From Agelaius tricolor (Eukaryota; Chordata; Aves; Passeriformes; Icteridae), in contig JALJCS010000029.1 of the NCBI GenBank assembly GCA_023055355.1, forward strand, positions 8,763,501 through 8,827,500: a stretch of DNA of 64,000 nucleotides, in the 5' to 3' direction. Below are positions 31,191 through 64,000 of the stretch, piece after piece. The first letter of the stretch is position 1. Each line of letters begins with the position of its first letter. The position numbers and the translations under genes were made by a program. Under the pieces are notes generated by a model. It made no database searches. It was given only the letters and a program-made list of their open reading frames with translations, and was not told the origin of the DNA.

Positions 31191-31229
31191 AATGCTGTAA
31201 AGTACCTTAAAATTTCTATAAAGGGTAGT

Positions 31230-32080
31230 GCCGTAAAGCCGGACTGTCGCAAAACTGTCGTAAAGCGCGACTGTCGCAAAAGGTGCCGTAAAGCGCGACT
31301 GTCGCAAAAGGTGCCGTAAAGCGCGACTGTCGTAAAAGGTGCCGTAAAGCGCGACTGTCGCAAAACTGCCGTAAAGCGCGACTGTCGTAAAACTGCCGTA
31401 AAGCGCGACTGTCGTAAAAGGTGCCGTAAAGCGCGACTGTCGTAAAAGGTGCCGTAAAGCGCGACTGTCGCAAAACTGCCGTAAAGCGCGACTGTCGTAA
31501 AAGGTGCCGTAAAGCGCGACTGTCGTAAAACTGCCGTAAAGCGCGACTGTCGTAAAAGGTGCCGTAAAGCGCGACTGTCGTAAAAGGTGCCGTAAAGCGC
31601 GACTGTCGCAAAACTGCCGTAAAGCGCGACTGTCGTAAAAGGTGCCGTAAAGCGCGACTGTCGTAAAACTGCCGTAAAGCGCGACTGTCGTAAAAGGTGC
31701 CGTAAAGCGCGACTGTCGTAAAAGGTGCCGTAAAGCGCGACTGTCGCAAAACTGCCGTAAAGCGCGACTGTCGTAAAAGGTGCCGTAAAGCGCGACTGTC
31801 GTAAAACTGCCGTAAAGCGCGACTGTCGTAAAAGGTGCCGTAAAGCGCGACTGTCGTAAAAGGTGCCGTAAAGCGCGACTGTCGTAAAACTGCCGTAAAG
31901 CGCGACTGTCGCAAAAAGGTGCCGTAAAGCGCGACTGCCGTAAAAACTGCCGTAAAGCGCGACTGTCGCAAAAGGTGCCGTAAAGCGCGACTGTCGTAAA
32001 AGGTGCCGTAAAGCGCGACTGCCGTAAAAACTGCCGTAAAGCGCGACTGTCGCAAAAGGTGCCGTAAAGCGCGACATCCG
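31230..32080 (-). repeat. 27/28-bp CpG minisatellite with 138-bp higher-order unit
   Basis: About 31 copies of GTCGTAAAAGGTGCCGTAAAG / GCGCGACT-type units, alternating 28 bp (AAAAGGTGCC) and 27 bp (AAAACTGCC). Between 31381 and about 31930 they are ordered as a five-mer of 138 bp; the same point recurs at 31381, 31519, 31657 and 31795. Because 138 is divisible by three, two ~300-codon frames stay open on the minus strand. These are periodic by-products and not genes. Confidence 0.93.
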
Positions 32081-35955: not shown

Positions 35956-36396
35956 TTAAGTTGCTGTGCTGGTTTTACCTTTTTGTTTATTATTTGTTTT
36001 TTTTACCAAATCTCGAACCATATCTTCAAGATTAATTGTAAAACAAATCCATCTCTCTCCTTTTGGACATTCAATTCCAAATCTATTACCACTTTTTCCT
36101 AAGTTTCTTGTAATCCAATAATTTACTCCATTTTGCCTACAGGTTCTTAATTTGGATGGGTTATAACAGTGGCTGTTGACATAGGTGTGTGTAATTAAAG
36201 AGGAACTTTGGTTTCTTTCCACGTGATGCTTTCTGCAGCATTTGTGACACGATCTTGCTGGTATCCCGAAAGGGAAAAGAGAACAAATGAGTGCCAGAAA
36301 CAGGAATAGCAGAGGTCCAGTATGCCTTATACTCCCTCCTCCCAGGCCTGTGAGGTTGCAACCCACAGCAGGTGTATTTGATCTTCTCGGTGGCAA
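35956..36396 (-). pseudogene. env: env surface-subunit remnant
   Basis: A 146-codon open segment with a hydrophobic signal-like or membrane run (PLLFLFLALICSLFPFG) and several cysteines (CHKCCRKHH, CPKGERWICF). It lies immediately 5' of the transmembrane remnant on the same strand, but the two are separated by a stop. It is much shorter than a full surface subunit, so most of it is deleted. Confidence 0.6.
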
Positions 36397-38159
36397 AATA
36401 CAGAGGCCAATCTGGTCTTGCCCTCTATTTTCTTGTCACTTTCTCTTAACTAATTCCCAGGCAAATTGGTTTTGACACCCTTTAACTGTGGTCTCTTACG
36501 GTTCTTCAGCTATCTCTCATTCAACAGGCAGTAATAATTCCCATCCACAAAGCTAAGTTATTACTTTAACACTTTTTGCAATAAGAACATAAATGTTGTG
36601 AACTACAATACTAATTATTCTCACAATTCAAGCATTTACTTATAACCCAGCTAGCATGTCCAGTATTGTAATGAATCAAATAAAGTTTACTGATGGAAAT
36701 GGTAATTCCCCTTCTCCCCTGTACAATTCTCAGGCTAAGGTCAGAACACAAAAACAGTCTTGATCCTTCTATCTGGAGAATTCCTCCCCTAAGGAGATGT
36801 TTTATTCAGGCAGTGCTTGAAACCAGTGGTATAAGCATTGTCTTACTTCTGAATTCAGTGTTATTCTTTGTACATTTCTTGGATCATTTTGCTTTTTCCA
36901 AACTATTACCACTCAGTCCCCATTGGAAAGTCAGTTTGGTATCACCCGGTTTAAATGTGATAGTCCTTAGATTCTGCTGGCATGAATTCACCCTTTTTCC
37001 GTGGTTCTGATTGTTGCTTTGGTAGTACCTGGATAGGACTTCTTAATAGCATAGTAATAAAAGTAAGATAATACTGCATTAACTTTTACCATTCACTTTT
37101 CTTCCAAACTTTCTGGGTTTAGCTGAAAGCTTTTTCCACAGCAGCCTCTTCTTCTTCTATCCAGCTGTGCTAATAGCTGCAGAGGCAAATTCTTCTTTTT
37201 GTGAGTTACAGTTAGTTAAATAAGAAAAGCTAGACCAATTTTAACACTAGATGTATCACATCTATTGCTTTTTACTTTTTGGGCAGCATTTAATTGTTTT
37301 AGCCTTACAAACCCATTCTTCGGGAAAAAAATCAAAAAAATTCTTTTTAACAGCAAACAAAACACACAAAAGAAAAGACCAAAAACCTTCTTACTTAAGA
37401 AAAACAAACCACTTTGTGAGGTTTGGAGAGTCAGCAATCTCTGCTTTGATTTTATCTTTTAGTGCTAGCCCCCTCCCGCTCTTTTCACGGCCTTGCTGTC
37501 AATGCCATGCTGCCACTTTGCTGCAGGGCCGGAGCAGGGGAGAGCAGCCACGGGCATGGGGACCCTGGGGGCAGCCTTGGGTCCCTTTTGCCCTCTCTCT
37601 CTCTTCTTCTCTCTCTTTCTCTTTCCTTCTCTCTCTCGGCCCACTTACCGGGGCCGACGCTGCCATCCTCGACTCGGGACCCCAGCAGCCTGGGAGCCCC
37701 CCGGCAGTTCCCCCATGGAGCCAGCGCGCTCCTGCCCGGCAAACCCGTGTGTCCTCTGCTGCCAGCACCGCCGCTGGGTCACCTCCATGGATCGGTGCCT
37801 GCCGCAGCTCCCGAGACCCCGCCGCTCATAGGGAGCGGTCAGACACCTCCCAACCTTGACAACCCCAAATCTGGCGTCCCCAGCTGCTCCTGACATTCCT
37901 TTCCTTTCTCTAGTCAACTTACCCTCTTTTCTCGTCAAGGAGAGCCCGTTCTGCTAAACCCTTTCTGGACCTCAGTTCGGCATTGAATAACCTCCTAACA
38001 ACCGTGTGTTAAGACACTTCCCTGCCTTTCATGCAAAAAACCCGCATTCACACTTCTGCTCTCTTCTAGCACCAAGATGTCATCACTTCACATTCTAACA
38101 TCTCAGAGTTTGCTAACCACCTCCCTACTTCAACTTCTCTCTTTCTTCTCTTCTTACCT

Positions 38160-55889: not shown

Positions 55890-57165
55890 TGTGACTTTTG
55901 CTTTTCAGGTTTTTCAACTCATTTTTAAATTTAGAATAAAAAATCCCCAGCCGGGGGGTTTTTTTTTTTTTCCCCCCGGCTGGGTTTTTTTTTCCCGGGT
56001 CCCGGTCGGTCGGCGAGGCGACGTTCATCGCCAAAGTTTGGGCGCGGACCGGCCAGGGACCGGGGTTTTCGTCAGGCAGGAGGATTTTTCGGGGCCTCCC
56101 GGGAACCACGTTCCCGAGGAGGGGCGGGAGTGCGTGCCGAGGGTTAGCAGAGAGGTTCAGGTGTGAGTCAGCATGGGTGTGTGTGTAAGCTGAAGGCAGT
56201 GTGTGTGTGTTGAAGGGTTCTGGGGTTGTAACCTTGTATGAGTTTTGCTTTTCAGGTTTTTCAACTCATTTTTAAATTTAGAATAAAAAATCCCCAGCCG
56301 GGGGGGTTTTTTTTTTTCCCCCCGGCTGGGTTTTTTTTTTCCCGGGTCCCGGTCGGTCGGCGAGGCGACGTTCATCGCCAAAGTTTGGGCGCGGACCGGC
56401 CAGGGACCGGGGTTTTCGTCAGGCAGGAGGATTTTTCGGGGCCTCCCGGGAACCACGTTCCCGAGGAGGGGCGGGAGTGTGTGCCGAGGGTTAGCAGAGA
56501 GGTTCAGGTGTGAGTCAGCATGGGTGTGTGTGTAAGCTGAAGGCAGTGTGTGTGTGTTGAAGGGTTCTGGGGTTGTAACCTTGTATGAGTTTTGCTTTTC
56601 AGGTTTTTCAACTCATTTTTAAATTTAGAATAAAAAATCCCCAGCCGGGGGTTTTTTTTTTTTCCCCCCGGCTGGGTTTTTTTTTCCCGGGTCCCGGTCG
56701 GTTGGCGAGGCGACGTTCATCGCCAAAGTTTGGGCGCGGACTGGCCAGGGACCGGGGTTTTCCTCAGGCAGGAGGATTTTTTTTGGGTGCTCTCGGGAAC
56801 CACGTTCCCGAAGAGGGGCGTGAATGCGTGCCGAGGGTCAGTGGAGCGGTTGAGGTCTGATCGACTGTGGGTGTGTGTGTGTTGAAGGGGTCTAGGGTTC
56901 TAACCTTGTATGAGTTTTGCTTTTCAGGTTTTTCAACTCATTTTTAAATTTAGAATAAAAAATCCCCAGCCGGGGGGGTTTTTTTTTTTTTTCCCCCCGG
57001 CTGGGTTTTTTTTTCCCGGGTCCCGGTCGGTCGGCGAGGCGACGTTCATCGCCAAAGTTTGGGCGTGGACCGGCCAGGGACTGGGGTTTTCGTCAGGCAG
57101 GAGGATTTTTTTGTGGTCCTGGGAACCACGTTCCTCAGGAGCAATGATTACTGGGGTGTAATTTA
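55890..57165 (+). repeat. Four ~325-347-bp tandem units with C/G hairpins
   Basis: Units start near 55890, 56236, 56583 and 56908. Each holds an acceptor-like GCTTTTCAG, AGAATAAAAAATCC, a perfect hairpin CCCAGCCGGGGGG / CCCCCCGGCTGGG around a T-loop of about 10-15 (first copy 55946-55958 and 55972-55984), a GTCCCGGTCGGTCGGCGAGG segment, and GGGAACCACGTTCCC (6-bp arms). The first two units are almost identical and the last is truncated. Confidence 0.9.
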
Positions 57166-57879: not shown

Positions 57880-58535
57880 TTATAACTGTCTATCTCAGTC
57901 CTCTCGCTTCTTTTTCTCTCCACGTTCTCCTTTTCCTCAGTTTGTGTTTTTTGCTCTTAGTCCTTTCCTTTTTCAGCCCATTCCTAAGTTTTCACCTTCA
58001 CTCTAATCCTAACCACTTTCTTTTTCCCTCTAACTTCTGTCCTTCTTCAGTTCTCCCACCCTCCTTTTCCTGTCTCACTCTGTCCTCCTGTTTTTTCTTC
58101 TGTCTTCTTGTCTCTTCTTTGTCTTTTCCTATCTATCTCTTGTCCCTCTGTCTCCCTCTGTGTCTTCTCCCTCTGTTCTCTCCTCTTCTTTGTGTCTTTG
58201 TCCCTGTTCTCTCCCTCTATTTTCTTCCAACTCTTTTCTCTCTCCCTTTTCTCTCTGCTCCTCTGTCTCTCTTTTCCCTCTGCTTCTCTTTCTCTTTTCT
58301 CTCTGCTTCTGTCTTTTCTCTCTGTTTCTGTCTGTCTTTTCTCTTTTTTTCTCTCTTGTTCTCTTTTCTCTCTGCTCCTCTGTCTCTCTTTTCTCTCTGC
58401 TTCTCTGTCTCTTCTCTCTGCTTCTGTCTTTTCTCTCTGCTTCTCTCTCTCTCTCTCTCTCTCTCTTTTCTCTCTCTTTTGTCTCTCCTTCTCTCTCTCT
58501 CCTTCTCTTTCTAACTTTGTTTCCTTTCTAGCTTT
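57880..58535. repeat. Pyrimidine tract on the + strand
   Basis: About 650 bases of almost pure C/T (TCTCTCTTTTCTCTCTGCTTC type), including (CT)n at 58446-58466. Ser/Leu/Phe frames across it are by-products. Such strand asymmetry can adopt triplex (H-DNA) structure. Confidence 0.9.
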
Positions 58536-58547
58536 AGTTTAAAAAAG

Positions 58548-58647
58548 CAGCAGTAGGAAATTTCAGGCTCCCTGGGAGTAAAAGAAAAAAAAAAAAATTA
58601 AAAAACAAACCATTTACTCCCCGGGAGCCTGAAATTTCCTACTGCTG
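58548..58647. repeat. 35-bp-arm inverted repeat (hairpin)
   Basis: 58548-58582 (CAGCAGTAGGAAATTTCAGG onward) is the reverse complement of 58613-58647 with a single mismatch near the loop. The 30-base loop is A-rich. It has the size of a small hairpin RNA precursor or of a short palindromic insertion. Confidence 0.85.
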
Positions 58648-58699
58648 CACCAGACATATAGTTTTTCTTCTTTTTAGTATATACAGTATATAGGGATCC

Positions 58700-58867
58700 C
58701 ACCTGTCAGCAATCAATAGTAACCAGTAGTCCCCACCCACATCTACACCCCCTGCAGCCCCCACCCCTATACACACCCCTCCCATGCTGCCCACACCCCA
58801 CCCCCATGGGTGCCCCCCTCGCCAGACCCACCCCCTGAAACCAGCACCCCACCCCATGCCAATCACA
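58700..58867. other. C-rich segment before the telomere-proximal element
   Basis: CCCCACCC-rich on the + strand (G-rich on the minus strand), including ACCCCACCCCCATGGGTGCC. The complementary strand could form G-quadruplexes. No gene. Confidence 0.6.
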
Positions 58868-58885
58868 TATAAATCATGCAGTCAC
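58859..58885 (+). promoter_or_regulatory. CCAAT and TATA motifs facing the telomere
   Basis: CCAAT at 58859-58863 and TATAAAT at 58868-58874, just before the CTCF-like array. On the + strand they would place initiation near 58.9 kb. Their spacing is unusually tight, so the TATA may be the relevant part or both may be chance. Confidence 0.4.
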
Positions 58886-59075
58886 AGCGCCACCTGCCGT
58901 TTACTCGCGAGTACTGCACTCACAGCGCCACCTGCTGCTTGCCGGGCGGTACTACATGCACAGCGCCACCTGGTGCTCGCCGGCCGGTACTGCATGCACA
59001 GCGCCCCCTGCCGTCCACATACCGGTACTGCAGTCACAGCGCCCCCTGCCGCCCGCCGCGCCACATTGCACCCGC
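58886..59075 (+). promoter_or_regulatory. Five CTCF-like motifs in a 38-bp tandem array
   Basis: AGCGCCACCTGC, AGCGCCACCTGCTG, AGCGCCACCTGGTG, AGCGCCCCCTGCCG and AGCGCCCCCTGCCG begin at 58886, 58924, 58962, 59000 and 59038, exactly 38 bases apart. Each fits the known CTCF core (GCGCC[A/C]CCTGSTGG, this strand). A diverged sixth (GGCGCGCCCCCA) starts at about 59076. CTCF is established at human subtelomeres next to TERRA promoters. Binding here is predicted only. Confidence 0.65.
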
Positions 59076-59084
59076 GGCGCGCCC

Positions 59085-60292
59085 CCAATGACGTCACCAG
59101 CGCGACACGCCCCAGAAAGGACCCCAGTGCACAGGCGTCCCCCGCAATCGCCCGACCGAAACGGCACCCCCCTCCCCACGCCCCGCAGACCCCCGCGCGC
59201 GTCACCGCCAGCCCCACGCGAACCGGAACGCCATTCCGACCCCGACCGACCCGCAAAAACCGCGCAAAACCCGCCCGAAACCCCGAAAAAAATCCCGGTC
59301 CCGGCGGCCGCCATTTTGCCGCAAATGACGTCACCCGGCCCGCCGCCATCTTGTCCCCCGTACCACGTGACCCCCCTCGCGGCCGCCATCTTGCCCCCCC
59401 CCCGCACCACGTGACCCCCCCGCGGCCGCCATTTTGCTGCCGTAAATGACGTCACCCCGCACGGCCGCCATATTGCCGTAAATGACGTCACAGAGCACTC
59501 GCCGCCATCTTGGTCACCGATCACGTGACCGACTGGCGGCCGCCATCTTGGCTGCCGTACCACGTGACCCTCTGGGCGCCGCCATGTTGTACGACACCAC
59601 GTGACCCCATGGGCGCCGCCATCTTGGATGACATCACAGGGCCCGCCATCTTGTCTCCCCAGATCACGTGACCGCCGCCATCTTGGTCCCCGGTCACATG
59701 ACCCCATGGGCGCCGCCATACTGGACGCTACCACGTGACCGCATGGGGGCGGCCATCTTGGTTCCCTGATCACATGACCCCCTGAGCGCCGCCATATTGG
59801 ACGCCACCACGTGACCGTATGGGCGCCGCCATCTTGGACGCGTCATCACGACGTCACGGCAGCCGCCATCTTGGTCCCCGGTCACATGACCCCATAGGCG
59901 CCGCCATCTTGCTGCCGTAAATGACGTAACCCCCACGGCCGCCATCTTGCCGTAAATGACGTCACCGGCCGCCATCTTGCCTGCCGTACCACGTGACCCC
60001 CCTCACGGCCGCCATCTTGCTGCCGTAAATGACGTCACCCCCTATAGCCACAACCCTGCCGTAAATGACGTCACCGGCCGCCATCTTGTCGTAAATGACG
60101 TCACAGAGCACTCGCCGTCATCGCGGCTGTCGAGTCACGTGACCCCCGGTCGCCGCCATCTTGGTCCCCAGTCACGTGACCGCCGCCATCTTGGTCCCTA
60201 GTCACATGACCCCATGGGGGCCGCCATCTTGGTTCCCTACCACGTGACCATATGGGGGCCGCCATCTTGATGACTCATCATGACGTCACCAC
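59085..60292 (+). promoter_or_regulatory. Dense YY1/CREB/USF motif array abutting the telomere
   Basis: Roughly 25 copies of GCCGCCATCTTG (YY1 core AAGATGGCGGC on the minus strand, all in one orientation), about ten TGACGTCA (CREB/ATF) and about a dozen CACGTGAC (USF/TFE-type E-box), plus CACATGACC variants. CCAT starts at 59311, 59346, 59386, 59429, 59468, 59506, 59543, 59582, 59619... step mostly 37-40. It is CpG-rich and ends with TGACGTCACCACGGG, fused to the first telomere repeat. It is a candidate TERRA promoter and methylation-sensitive control region. Frames across it are not genes. Confidence 0.65.
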
Positions 60293-63200
60293 GGGTTAGG
60301 GTTAGGGTTAGGGTTAGGGTTAGGGTTAGGGTTAGGGTTAGGGTTAGGGTTAGGGTTAGGGTTAGGGTTAGGGTTAGGGTTAGGGTTAGGGTTAGGGTTA
60401 GGGTTAGGGTTAGGGTTAGGGTTAGGGTTAGGGTTAGGGTTAGGGTTAGGGTTAGGGTTAGGGTTAGGGTTAGGGTTAGGGTTAGGGTTAGGGTTAGGGT
60501 TAGGGTTAGGGTTAGGGTTAGGGTTAGGGTTAGGGTTAGGGTTAGGGTTAGGGTTAGGGTTAGGGTTAGGGTTAGGGTTAGGGTTAGGGTTAGGGTTAGG
60601 GTTAGGGTTAGGGTTAGGGTTAGGGTTAGGGTTAGGGTTAGGGTTAGGGTTAGGGTTAGGGTTAGGGTTAGGGTTAGGGTTAGGGTTAGGGTTAGGGTTA
60701 GGGTTAGGGTTAGGGTTAGGGTTAGGGTTAGGGTTAGGGTTAGGGTTAGGGTTAGGGTTAGGGTTAGGGTTAGGGTTAGGGTTAGGGTTAGGGTTAGGGT
60801 TAGGGTTAGGGTTAGGGTTAGGGTTAGGGTTAGGGTTAGGGTTAGGGTTAGGGTTAGGGTTAGGGTTAGGGTTAGGGTTAGGGTTAGGGTTAGGGTTAGG
60901 GTTAGGGTTAGGGTTAGGGTTAGGGTTAGGGTTAGGGTTAGGGTTAGGGTTAGGGTTAGGGTTAGGGTTAGGGTTAGGGTTAGGGTTAGGGTTAGGGTTA
61001 GGGTTAGGGTTAGGGTTAGGGTTAGGGTTAGGGTTAGGGTTAGGGTTAGGGTTAGGGTTAGGGTTAGGGTTAGGGTTAGGGTTAGGGTTAGGGTTAGGGT
61101 TAGGGTTAGGGTTAGGGTTAGGGTTAGGGTTAGGGTTAGGGTTAGGGTTAGGGTTAGGGTTAGGGTTAGGGTTAGGGTTAGGGTTAGGGTTAGGGTTAGG
61201 GTTAGGGTTAGGGTTAGGGTTAGGGTTAGGGTTAGGGTTAGGGTTAGGGTTAGGGTTAGGGTTAGGGTTAGGGTTAGGGTTAGGGTTAGGGTTAGGGTTA
61301 GGGTTAGGGTTAGGGTTAGGGTTAGGGTTAGGGTTAGGGTTAGGGTTAGGGTTAGGGTTAGGGTTAGGGTTAGGGTTAGGGTTAGGGTTAGGGTTAGGGT
61401 TAGGGTTAGGGTTAGGGTTAGGGTTAGGGTTAGGGTTAGGGTTAGGGTTAGGGTTAGGGTTAGGGTTAGGGTTAGGGTTAGGGTTAGGGTTAGGGTTAGG
61501 GTTAGGGTTAGGGTTAGGGTTAGGGTTAGGGTTAGGGTTAGGGTTAGGGTTAGGGTTAGGGTTAGGGTTAGGGTTAGGGTTAGGGTTAGGGTTAGGGTTA
61601 GGGTTAGGGTTAGGGTTAGGGTTAGGGTTAGGGTTAGGGTTAGGGTTAGGGTTAGGGTTAGGGTTAGGGTTAGGGTTAGGGTTAGGGTTAGGGTTAGGGT
61701 TAGGGTTAGGGTTAGGGTTAGGGTTAGGGTTAGGGTTAGGGTTAGGGTTAGGGTTAGGGTTAGGGTTAGGGTTAGGGTTAGGGTTAGGGTTAGGGTTAGG
61801 GTTAGGGTTAGGGTTAGGGTTAGGGTTAGGGTTAGGGTTAGGGTTAGGGTTAGGGTTAGGGTTAGGGTTAGGGTTAGGGTTAGGGTTAGGGTTAGGGTTA
61901 GGGTTAGGGTTAGGGTTAGGGTTAGGGTTAGGGTTAGGGTTAGGGTTAGGGTTAGGGTTAGGGTTAGGGTTAGGGTTAGGGTTAGGGTTAGGGTTAGGGT
62001 TAGGGTTAGGGTTAGGGTTAGGGTTAGGGTTAGGGTTAGGGTTAGGGTTAGGGTTAGGGTTAGGGTTAGGGTTAGGGTTAGGGTTAGGGTTAGGGTTAGG
62101 GTTAGGGTTAGGGTTAGGGTTAGGGTTAGGGTTAGGGTTAGGGTTAGGGTTAGGGTTAGGGTTAGGGTTAGGGTTAGGGTTAGGGTTAGGGTTAGGGTTA
62201 GGGTTAGGGTTAGGGTTAGGGTTAGGGTTAGGGTTAGGGTTAGGGTTAGGGTTAGGGTTAGGGTTAGGGTTAGGGTTAGGGTTAGGGTTAGGGTTAGGGT
62301 TAGGGTTAGGGTTAGGGTTAGGGTTAGGGTTAGGGTTAGGGTTAGGGTTAGGGTTAGGGTTAGGGTTAGGGTTAGGGTTAGGGTTAGGGTTAGGGTTAGG
62401 GTTAGGGTTAGGGTTAGGGTTAGGGTTAGGGTTAGGGTTAGGGTTAGGGTTAGGGTTAGGGTTAGGGTTAGGGTTAGGGTTAGGGTTAGGGTTAGGGTTA
62501 GGGTTAGGGTTAGGGTTAGGGTTAGGGTTAGGGTTAGGGTTAGGGTTAGGGTTAGGGTTAGGGTTAGGGTTAGGGTTAGGGTTAGGGTTAGGGTTAGGGT
62601 TAGGGTTAGGGTTAGGGTTAGGGTTAGGGTTAGGGTTAGGGTTAGGGTTAGGGTTAGGGTTAGGGTTAGGGTTAGGGTTAGGGTTAGGGTTAGGGTTAGG
62701 GTTAGGGTTAGGGTTAGGGTTAGGGTTAGGGTTAGGGTTAGGGTTAGGGTTAGGGTTAGGGTTAGGGTTAGGGTTAGGGTTAGGGTTAGGGTTAGGGTTA
62801 GGGTTAGGGTTAGGGTTAGGGTTAGGGTTAGGGTTAGGGTTAGGGTTAGGGTTAGGGTTAGGGTTAGGGTTAGGGTTAGGGTTAGGGTTAGGGTTAGGGT
62901 TAGGGTTAGGGTTAGGGTTAGGGTTAGGGTTAGGGTTAGGGTTAGGGTTAGGGTTAGGGTTAGGGTTAGGGTTAGGGTTAGGGTTAGGGTTAGGGTTAGG
63001 GTTAGGGTTAGGGTTAGGGTTAGGGTTAGGGTTAGGGTTAGGGTTAGGGTTAGGGTTAGGGTTAGGGTTAGGGTTAGGGTTAGGGTTAGGGTTAGGGTTA
63101 GGGTTAGGGTTAGGGTTAGGGTTAGGGTTAGGGTTAGGGTTAGGGTTAGGGTTAGGGTTAGGGTTAGGGTTAGGGTTAGGGTTAGGGTTAGGGTTAGGGT

Positions 63201-64000
63201 TAGGGTTAGGGTTAGGGTTAGGGTTAGGGTTAGGGTTAGGGTTAGGGTTAGGGTTAGGGTTAGGGTTAGGGTTAGGGTTAGGGTTAGGGTTAGGGTTAGG
63301 GTTAGGGTTAGGGTTAGGGTTAGGGTTAGGGTTAGGGTTAGGGTTAGGGTTAGGGTTAGGGTTAGGGTTAGGGTTAGGGTTAGGGTTAGGGTTAGGGTTA
63401 GGGTTAGGGTTAGGGTTAGGGTTAGGGTTAGGGTTAGGGTTAGGGTTAGGGTTAGGGTTAGGGTTAGGGTTAGGGTTAGGGTTAGGGTTAGGGTTAGGGT
63501 TAGGGTTAGGGTTAGGGTTAGGGTTAGGGTTAGGGTTAGGGTTAGGGTTAGGGTTAGGGTTAGGGTTAGGGTTAGGGTTAGGGTTAGGGTTAGGGTTAGG
63601 GTTAGGGTTAGGGTTAGGGTTAGGGTTAGGGTTAGGGTTAGGGTTAGGGTTAGGGTTAGGGTTAGGGTTAGGGTTAGGGTTAGGGTTAGGGTTAGGGTTA
63701 GGGTTAGGGTTAGGGTTAGGGTTAGGGTTAGGGTTAGGGTTAGGGTTAGGGTTAGGGTTAGGGTTAGGGTTAGGGTTAGGGTTAGGGTTAGGGTTAGGGT
63801 TAGGGTTAGGGTTAGGGTTAGGGTTAGGGTTAGGGTTAGGGTTAGGGTTAGGGTTAGGGTTAGGGTTAGGGTTAGGGTTAGGGTTAGGGTTAGGGTTAGG
63901 GTTAGGGTTAGGGTTAGGGTTAGGGTTAGGGTTAGGGTTAGGGTTAGGGTTAGGGTTAGGGTTAGGGTTAGGGTTAGGGTTAGGGTTAGGGTTAGGGTTA
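60293..64000 (+). repeat. Telomere, (GGGTTA)618
   Basis: From 60293 to the window edge every base fits (TTAGGG)n, with 618 perfect hexamers and no variant repeats at the proximal border. The G-rich strand runs 5'->3' to the right, so this is the true chromosome end (or very near it). The tract is cut by the window. Confidence 0.98.

Follow-up and report, generated by a model that had tools for sequence, protein, structure and literature searches.

The promoters of telomeric repeat-containing RNA (TERRA) in the literature cited here are human: they are CpG islands close to the telomere, built of short repeats and carrying CTCF sites, and 61-29-37-bp repeats occur at 37 of 46 human chromosome ends (PMC12242772, PMC6600276, PMC5727389). 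We analysed a 64,000-base stretch of the genome of Agelaius tricolor (assembly GCA_023055355.1, contig JALJCS010000029.1, positions 8,763,501 to 8,827,500; hereafter the window), which forms the final 64 kb of a contig of 8,827,500 bases (C29), window base 64000 being the contig end. It holds a CpG-rich element at 58859-60292 which runs directly into a telomeric tract and whose site array is, judging from its sequence, probably a promoter for telomere RNA. By description, the element resembles the human 61-29-37 promoters in its CpG island, its short tandem repeats, its presence at many ends, and its methylation-sensitive and CTCF-type sites. In the human 17p family two CTCF motifs stand in tandem ~35 bp apart (PMC5727389), comparable to the 38-bp CTCF-type array here. 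The element differs in detail: the human 29-bp repeats bear NRF1 sites, whereas the units here carry sites of YY1, E-box and cyclic-AMP response element (CRE) type and the element has 0 NRF1-type sites; and the CTCF-type sites, which in human follow ~300 bp downstream of the 29-bp repeats, are here on the inner side (PMC12242772, PMC6600276, PMC5727389). The element also touches the telomere directly, unlike the human promoters as those sources describe them.

Other described systems share parts of this layout. The mouse LINE-1 (L1) Tf promoter likewise consists of tandem units each with a YY1 motif, written GCCAT; these motifs are needed for activity and synergy, and YY1 binds less well when CpG on the top strand is methylated (PMC11602158). 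This example of a synergistic, methylation-sensitive promoter composed of tandem YY1 units supports the promoter reading of the array here. L1 Tf is, however, a retrotransposon promoter with ~2-4 monomers on average (PMC11602158), against ~20 short units per end here, and no retroelement body was identified adjoining the array. In the Peg3 imprinting region, a differentially methylated region contains YY1 sites in an uncommon tandem arrangement, but this is an imprinted mammalian gene region rather than a chromosome end, and the part of the source used describes no alternation with E-box or CRE sites (PMC4361396). What the locus has in common with clustered-YY1 elements is 22 exact tandem YY1-type sites in a CpG island, with YY1-like base specificity. 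Among insulators, the subtelomeric D4Z4 has CTCF sites and chicken 5'HS4 has CTCF and USF sites, and sites of both types are present in the element at the sequence level; the distance of D4Z4 from the telomere is estimated at 25-50 kb, and no comparable YY1/E-box/CRE-type alternation is described for either insulator in the sections of the source used (PMC2639723). In chicken, 19 acrocentric short arms have the conserved 5-kb sequence CenTe_5k next to the telomere, and PO41 is a transcribed subtelomeric repeat; by description, both may be likened to the element (PMC9974502, PMC4301066). Among the titles and abstract openings listed from the open-licence PubMed Central literature, no description of the array appears.

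The original prediction, made from the letters of the window, placed a CpG-rich element base-to-base on the TTAGGG tract, and this is what we find: across 58859-60296 the GC content is 65.5% and the observed/expected CpG ratio 1.11, and the telomeric (GGGTTA)n tract follows on the + strand from 60293 to 64000, unbroken over 618 units with a 100% match. In the upstream flank, three 200-base bins spanning 58001-58600 contain zero CpG. The element, read on the + strand, has two parts: 38-bp CTCF-like units, then a CRE-type site and a 210-bp linker, then an array of YY1-, E-box- and CRE-type sites. We take these protein names (YY1, CREB/ATF, USF/TFE for the E-box, CTCF) from consensus motifs that the sites presumably represent. 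The five predicted CTCF-like sites (CAGCGCCMCCTG) are present at 58885-59048 with 38-bp spacing; the mean expected in the window is 0.01, and none of 100 dinucleotide-preserving shuffles scored as high. The first CRE-type site (TGACGTCA) lies at 59089-59096, and the CpG-rich linker, which is free of array sites, at 59097-59306.

The array itself occupies 59307-60288 and is built of YY1-type (GCCGCCATnTTG), E-box-type (CACGTGAC and the variant CACATGAC) and CRE-type (TGACGTCA) sites, adjacent ones mostly lying 17-20 bp apart, centre to centre. The predicted abundance of YY1, CREB/ATF and USF motifs was borne out: the window has 22 exact matches to the YY1-type GCCGCCATNTTG (mean expected 0.03), 9 to the CRE-type TGACGTCA (0.24) and 16 to the E-box-type CACGTGAC (0.56), in each case with 0 of 100 shuffles as high. 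Fourteen of these CACGTGAC matches are inside the element (12 forward, and 2 reverse matches overlapping forward ones), along with four sites of the variant CACATGAC. A fixed 37-bp repeat unit does not describe the array: units vary, and 279 of 433 measure 37-39 bp (stretches of type A, defined below, and of C15s). The terminal unit (GCCGCCATCTTGATGASTCATCATGACGTCACC, 60258-60292) comprises a YY1-type site, an AP-1-like palindrome (TGATGASTCATCA, 60268-60280) and the last CRE-type site (TGACGTCA, 60281-60288), followed by CCAC and then GGGTTA from 60293, to give the near-invariant junction CACCAC/GGGTTA (the slash marks the start of the telomere).

The element recurs at other telomeres of the species, as the original prediction would have it. 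We searched the genome (1.16 Gb in 214 contigs, many of 1-25 Mb, sizes that would fit a bird) by a whole-genome DNA search, considering the best 40 of 65 candidates, and by a site-pattern search, the resulting copy counts being lower bounds, and examined 29 end stretches besides the window copy. Intact copies (type A) are found at at least 24 contig ends, at least 23 of them beyond the window, in one orientation throughout; at least six diverged copies (type B) are likewise terminal. The main matches of type A copies are 75-87% identical to the window copy, and those of type B 70-75%; types were assigned on this identity together with array structure and CpG content, the identity ranges touching each other. 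Type A copies have 4-10 CTCF-like units and up to 43 exact YY1-type sites. All 30 copies lie within ~13 kb of a contig end, and no intact copy away from a contig end was found among the best 40 of 65 candidates. Every one of the 521 exact YY1-type and 140 CTCF-like sites in the 24 type A copies points in the same direction relative to the telomere; since the copies are of common descent, this uniformity does not represent independent events.

Seventeen of the 24 type A copies reach telomeric repeats within the sequence examined (the other 7 stop at the contig end or in Ns), and all 17 contact them base-to-base. The junction CACC[GA]C/GGGTT is common to 16 of the 17, the exception being C145, which has an extra half YY1-type unit there. 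The pattern TGACGTCA-N(0-30)-GGGTTAGGGTTAGGG occurs on 14 contigs, always at contig ends and on 12 in the form TGACGTCACC[GA]C/GGGTTA, and its reversed control has zero matches in the genome. Because one junction is common to the ends, the sequences suggest that ends were copied between chromosomes, junction included, rather than healed afresh each time. The tree of 23 type A copies is star-like with long tips. A sample of 40 further contig ends (150 bases each) contained one telomeric end (the C28 start), no telomeric run was found in the first 10 kb of C1-C4, and the C44 end has variant telomeric repeats; since most sampled ends stop short of the telomere in the assembly, universality cannot be claimed. 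Exact matches to the element numbered 0 in viral contigs and 0 in bacterial or archaeal contigs, as expected.

The sites are conserved well beyond the sequence between them. Alignment, footprint and tree cover 23 of the 24 type A copies, C22e being left out as it is cut by the contig end. In these, sites diverge from the majority consensus by 2.65% and array spacers by 9.4%, with a site mask drawn from the consensus (or, in pairwise comparisons, from either member of the pair), which favours sites somewhat; 0 of 2000 circular shifts of the mask gave divergence as low. Each class is conserved (YY1-type 2.0%, E-box-type 3.1%, CRE-type 2.6%, and CTCF-like 2.7% against 10.7% in the spacers between CTCF-like sites), and sites are less diverged than spacers in 23 of 23 copies. 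The pattern within the YY1-type site is specific: the ninth base, which is free in the YY1 consensus, changed in 66 of 470 cases (14%), against 49 of 5158 (0.95%) at the other eleven bases (p = 1.9e-42), and this degenerate base drifts like the flanks (417 of 3677 changed). The E-box-type site is most variable at CAC[G/A]TGAC (8.7%), while in the CTCF-like site the A/C position and one G vary most, and in the AP-1-like palindrome the central S does (10 C and 10 G of 20). CTCF-like sequence, as we take the CTCF consensus to read, is thus both present and conserved. Misregistered repeat units are an unlikely cause of the contrast: long pairwise matches of at least 95% identity (10 high-scoring segment pairs, 24 of 24 copies) keep it, with YY1-, E-box- and CRE-type sites differing by 1.3-1.5% and spacers by 6.3%, and the comparison among type B copies shows none. 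The type A sites thus appear to be under selection for factor binding.

Types A and B differ in how their CpG dinucleotides decay. Comparisons within type A used 12 of the 24 copies, and those within type B 4 of the 6 (C34s left out, C15s kept apart). CpG columns of type A change no faster than other columns (19.6% vs 18.3% in spacers, 4.6% vs 5.5% in sites), whereas those of type B do (21-22% vs 8-9%), and in type B site conservation is gone (sites 9.1%, spacers 8.0%). The observed/expected CpG ratio is 1.02-1.15 across the 24 type A copies and 0.35-0.46 in five type B copies (the C20e and C16e values covering 2.3 and 1.9 kb including flank); the sixth, at the C15 start, has B-like sequence and a ratio of 0.90. 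From the absence of excess CpG change in type A and the clear excess in type B, we infer that type A copies escape methylation in the germline and that type B is methylated and decaying. Relative to the type A consensus, however, non-CpG sites in type B are 0.11-0.14 diverged and spacers 0.20-0.31, which weakens the case for an absence of constraint in B; our reading is that constraint acted on the type A lineage, or on the ancestor before the split. On four contigs both ends bear a copy, and all four pair the types: on C14, C16 and C20 type A stands opposite type B, and on C15 it stands opposite the B-like copy, in which most CpG is retained. As for type B marking satellite-flanked short-arm ends, no tandem repeat was found in 601 bases sampled at C14 and C20, ~11-12 kb inward of their type B ends.

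The same array at many telomeres, with its sites kept intact, is the reason for considering it probably a promoter, and TERRA would be its natural product because the array stops at the telomere and has a single direction. We infer the binding proteins, the promoter role, the direction and TERRA as the product, and that the element is a chromosome-end promoter array driving TERRA seems to us somewhat better than an even bet. The features characteristic of TERRA promoters that are found here are a CpG island at the telomere of many ends and short tandem repeats. Tandem, oriented YY1-, E-box- (USF/TFE-type) and CREB/ATF-type sites would form a germline-unmethylated CpG island against the telomere; with factors bound, the island would stay open and RNA polymerase II would be loaded, to read from the array into the TTAGGG tract and yield TERRA, with many unit promoters adding up and the CTCF-type array marking the inner edge. 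Where a copy became methylated, binding would fail and the copy would decay, giving type B. CpG-containing arrays of this kind, open and selected at chromosome ends, would most simply serve transcription. A wider proposal, possible yet doubtful, is that this is a genome-wide chromosome-end regulatory element whose active version, unmethylated and selected, and silent version, methylated and decaying, stand at the two ends of one chromosome; germline methylation of the YY1/CREB/E-box arrays would then determine telomere transcription for each end separately.

If the promoter reading is right, this species and humans would have one layout (CpG island, short repeats, methylation-sensitive sites, a CTCF-type array, a telomere-side position) with different sites, a second solution that would point to convergent design; the array would name candidate factors, and end-specific methylation as the setter of telomere transcription would become testable, with the decaying type B copies as a built-in control. 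Of the TERRA promoter originally predicted, the family at chromosome ends, the conserved sites and substitutions fitting germline hypomethylation lend support, and the core promoter boxes do not. The CCAAT/TATAAA-like stretch (58859-58879, + strand) differs in most aligned copies: the fourth base of CCAAT is T in 22 of 23, being A only in the window copy, and G replaces A in TATAAA in 21 of 23. We therefore rejected these boxes as a core promoter common to the family.

Several observations weigh against a promoter that reads into the telomere. Neither TATA nor CCAAT is kept among the 23 aligned copies, and what we take to be the NRF1 motif (GCGCANGCGC, at most one mismatch) has 6 matches in the window and 0 in the element. 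Recurrent non-site 7-mers in the spacers diverge by 5.5%, which is under the spacer mean. The telomeric C28 start and C44 end have no copy among the matches listed. C outnumbers G on the + strand of the array (GC skew -0.23 to -0.37), and R-loop promoters often yield G-rich RNA, which would here be a transcript leaving the telomere. YY1 sites of genes often read AAGATGGCGGC downstream of the start, which would here also mean transcription away from the telomere. Finally, the CTCF-type and E-box sites are compatible with a barrier too, and a barrier or an outward-facing promoter would account for these sequence data.

Such a barrier or loop anchor, in which CTCF-, USF- and YY1-type sites would bound telomeric heterochromatin from the subtelomere with transcription incidental, is a credible but unlikely account. 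The CTCF-type array sits on the inner side; USF1/2 act in the chicken 5'HS4 insulator, D4Z4 is a subtelomeric CTCF-dependent insulator against telomeric position effect, and clusters of YY1 sites occur in the Peg3 region (PMC2639723, PMC4361396). A barrier, however, has no call for CRE-type sites or for ~20 YY1-type sites, and lowering YY1 or USF1/2 left a D4Z4 reporter unchanged in the experiments described (PMC2639723).

Quite improbable, to our minds, is a promoter that reads away from the telomere, or both ways with an ARRET-like RNA as the main product. The negative skew of the + strand speaks for it, as does the fact that the sites read AAGATGGCGGC on the - strand, a common promoter orientation. 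The spacer substitutions on the + strand (T>C 0.112 vs A>G 0.061) could reflect transcription of the other strand, but this asymmetry is weak and polarised by the majority alone, and we set it aside as a test of direction. Nor does outward transcription give a TERRA-independent reason for telomere contact through a near-invariant junction.

We give still less credence to a homogenised satellite of the subtelomeres whose sites help it to spread from end to end without benefit to the host, even though homology to other ends extends upstream through the flank, related interstitial units exist, the one common junction implies copying between ends, and selection for spread could itself constrain sites: the 23 copies form a star-like tree with long tips, and sites are constrained while spacers drift. 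Least of all do we favour an open, origin-like or fork-assisting region that aids telomere replication, since, although the CTCF site of human subtelomeres assists replication of the telomere by way of TERRA (PMC5727389), such a region would explain the CRE and E-box arrays no better than the putative promoter does.

Upstream of the element lies a CT-rich tract without CpG (58001-58538, + strand), a flank common to other chromosome ends by BLAST homology, followed by a hairpin of two 36-nt arms (58547-58582 and 58613-58648) that are 97% complementary; a strict pattern for it matched in 20 of the 29 end copies examined, window copy included. Seven interstitial stretches (L050-L056, on C5, C34, C71, C72 and C106) have homology to the CT tract, the CTCF-like array and the CRE-type site. 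Two of them, L050 and L054, keep the order CT tract, hairpin (a likeness seen by eye), TATA-like stretch, CTCF-like array, CRE-type site and 1-2 YY1-like units. All seven continue into CpG-dense 28-bp repeats (observed/expected CpG 1.61-1.84), which by eye are the reverse complement of a 28-bp array at window 31228-32075, itself flanked by A-rich and T-rich arms. The telomeric element may be an offshoot of the interstitial unit, or the reverse.

The first telomeric units vary by chromosome end: TTTAGGG at C38, TTTTAGGG at C10, TTAGGGG at C102 and TTAGGGTACGGG-type at C44. C60 and C64 have short TTAGGG runs about every 20 kb across long interstitial stretches, a recurrence that suggests telomeric repeats embedded in a large tandem array. 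Elsewhere in the window, a minus-strand reading frame at 35956-36435 resembles a retroviral envelope remnant by eye, with no Pfam match, and a reading frame at 123-671, possibly a first exon, matches the C2CD2L SMP domain weakly, below the cutoff (Pfam E 0.0087). A 347-bp tandem repeat of 3.7 copies, with poly-T and inverted GC-rich stretches, occupies 55892-57141 and is part of a subtelomeric block common to other ends.

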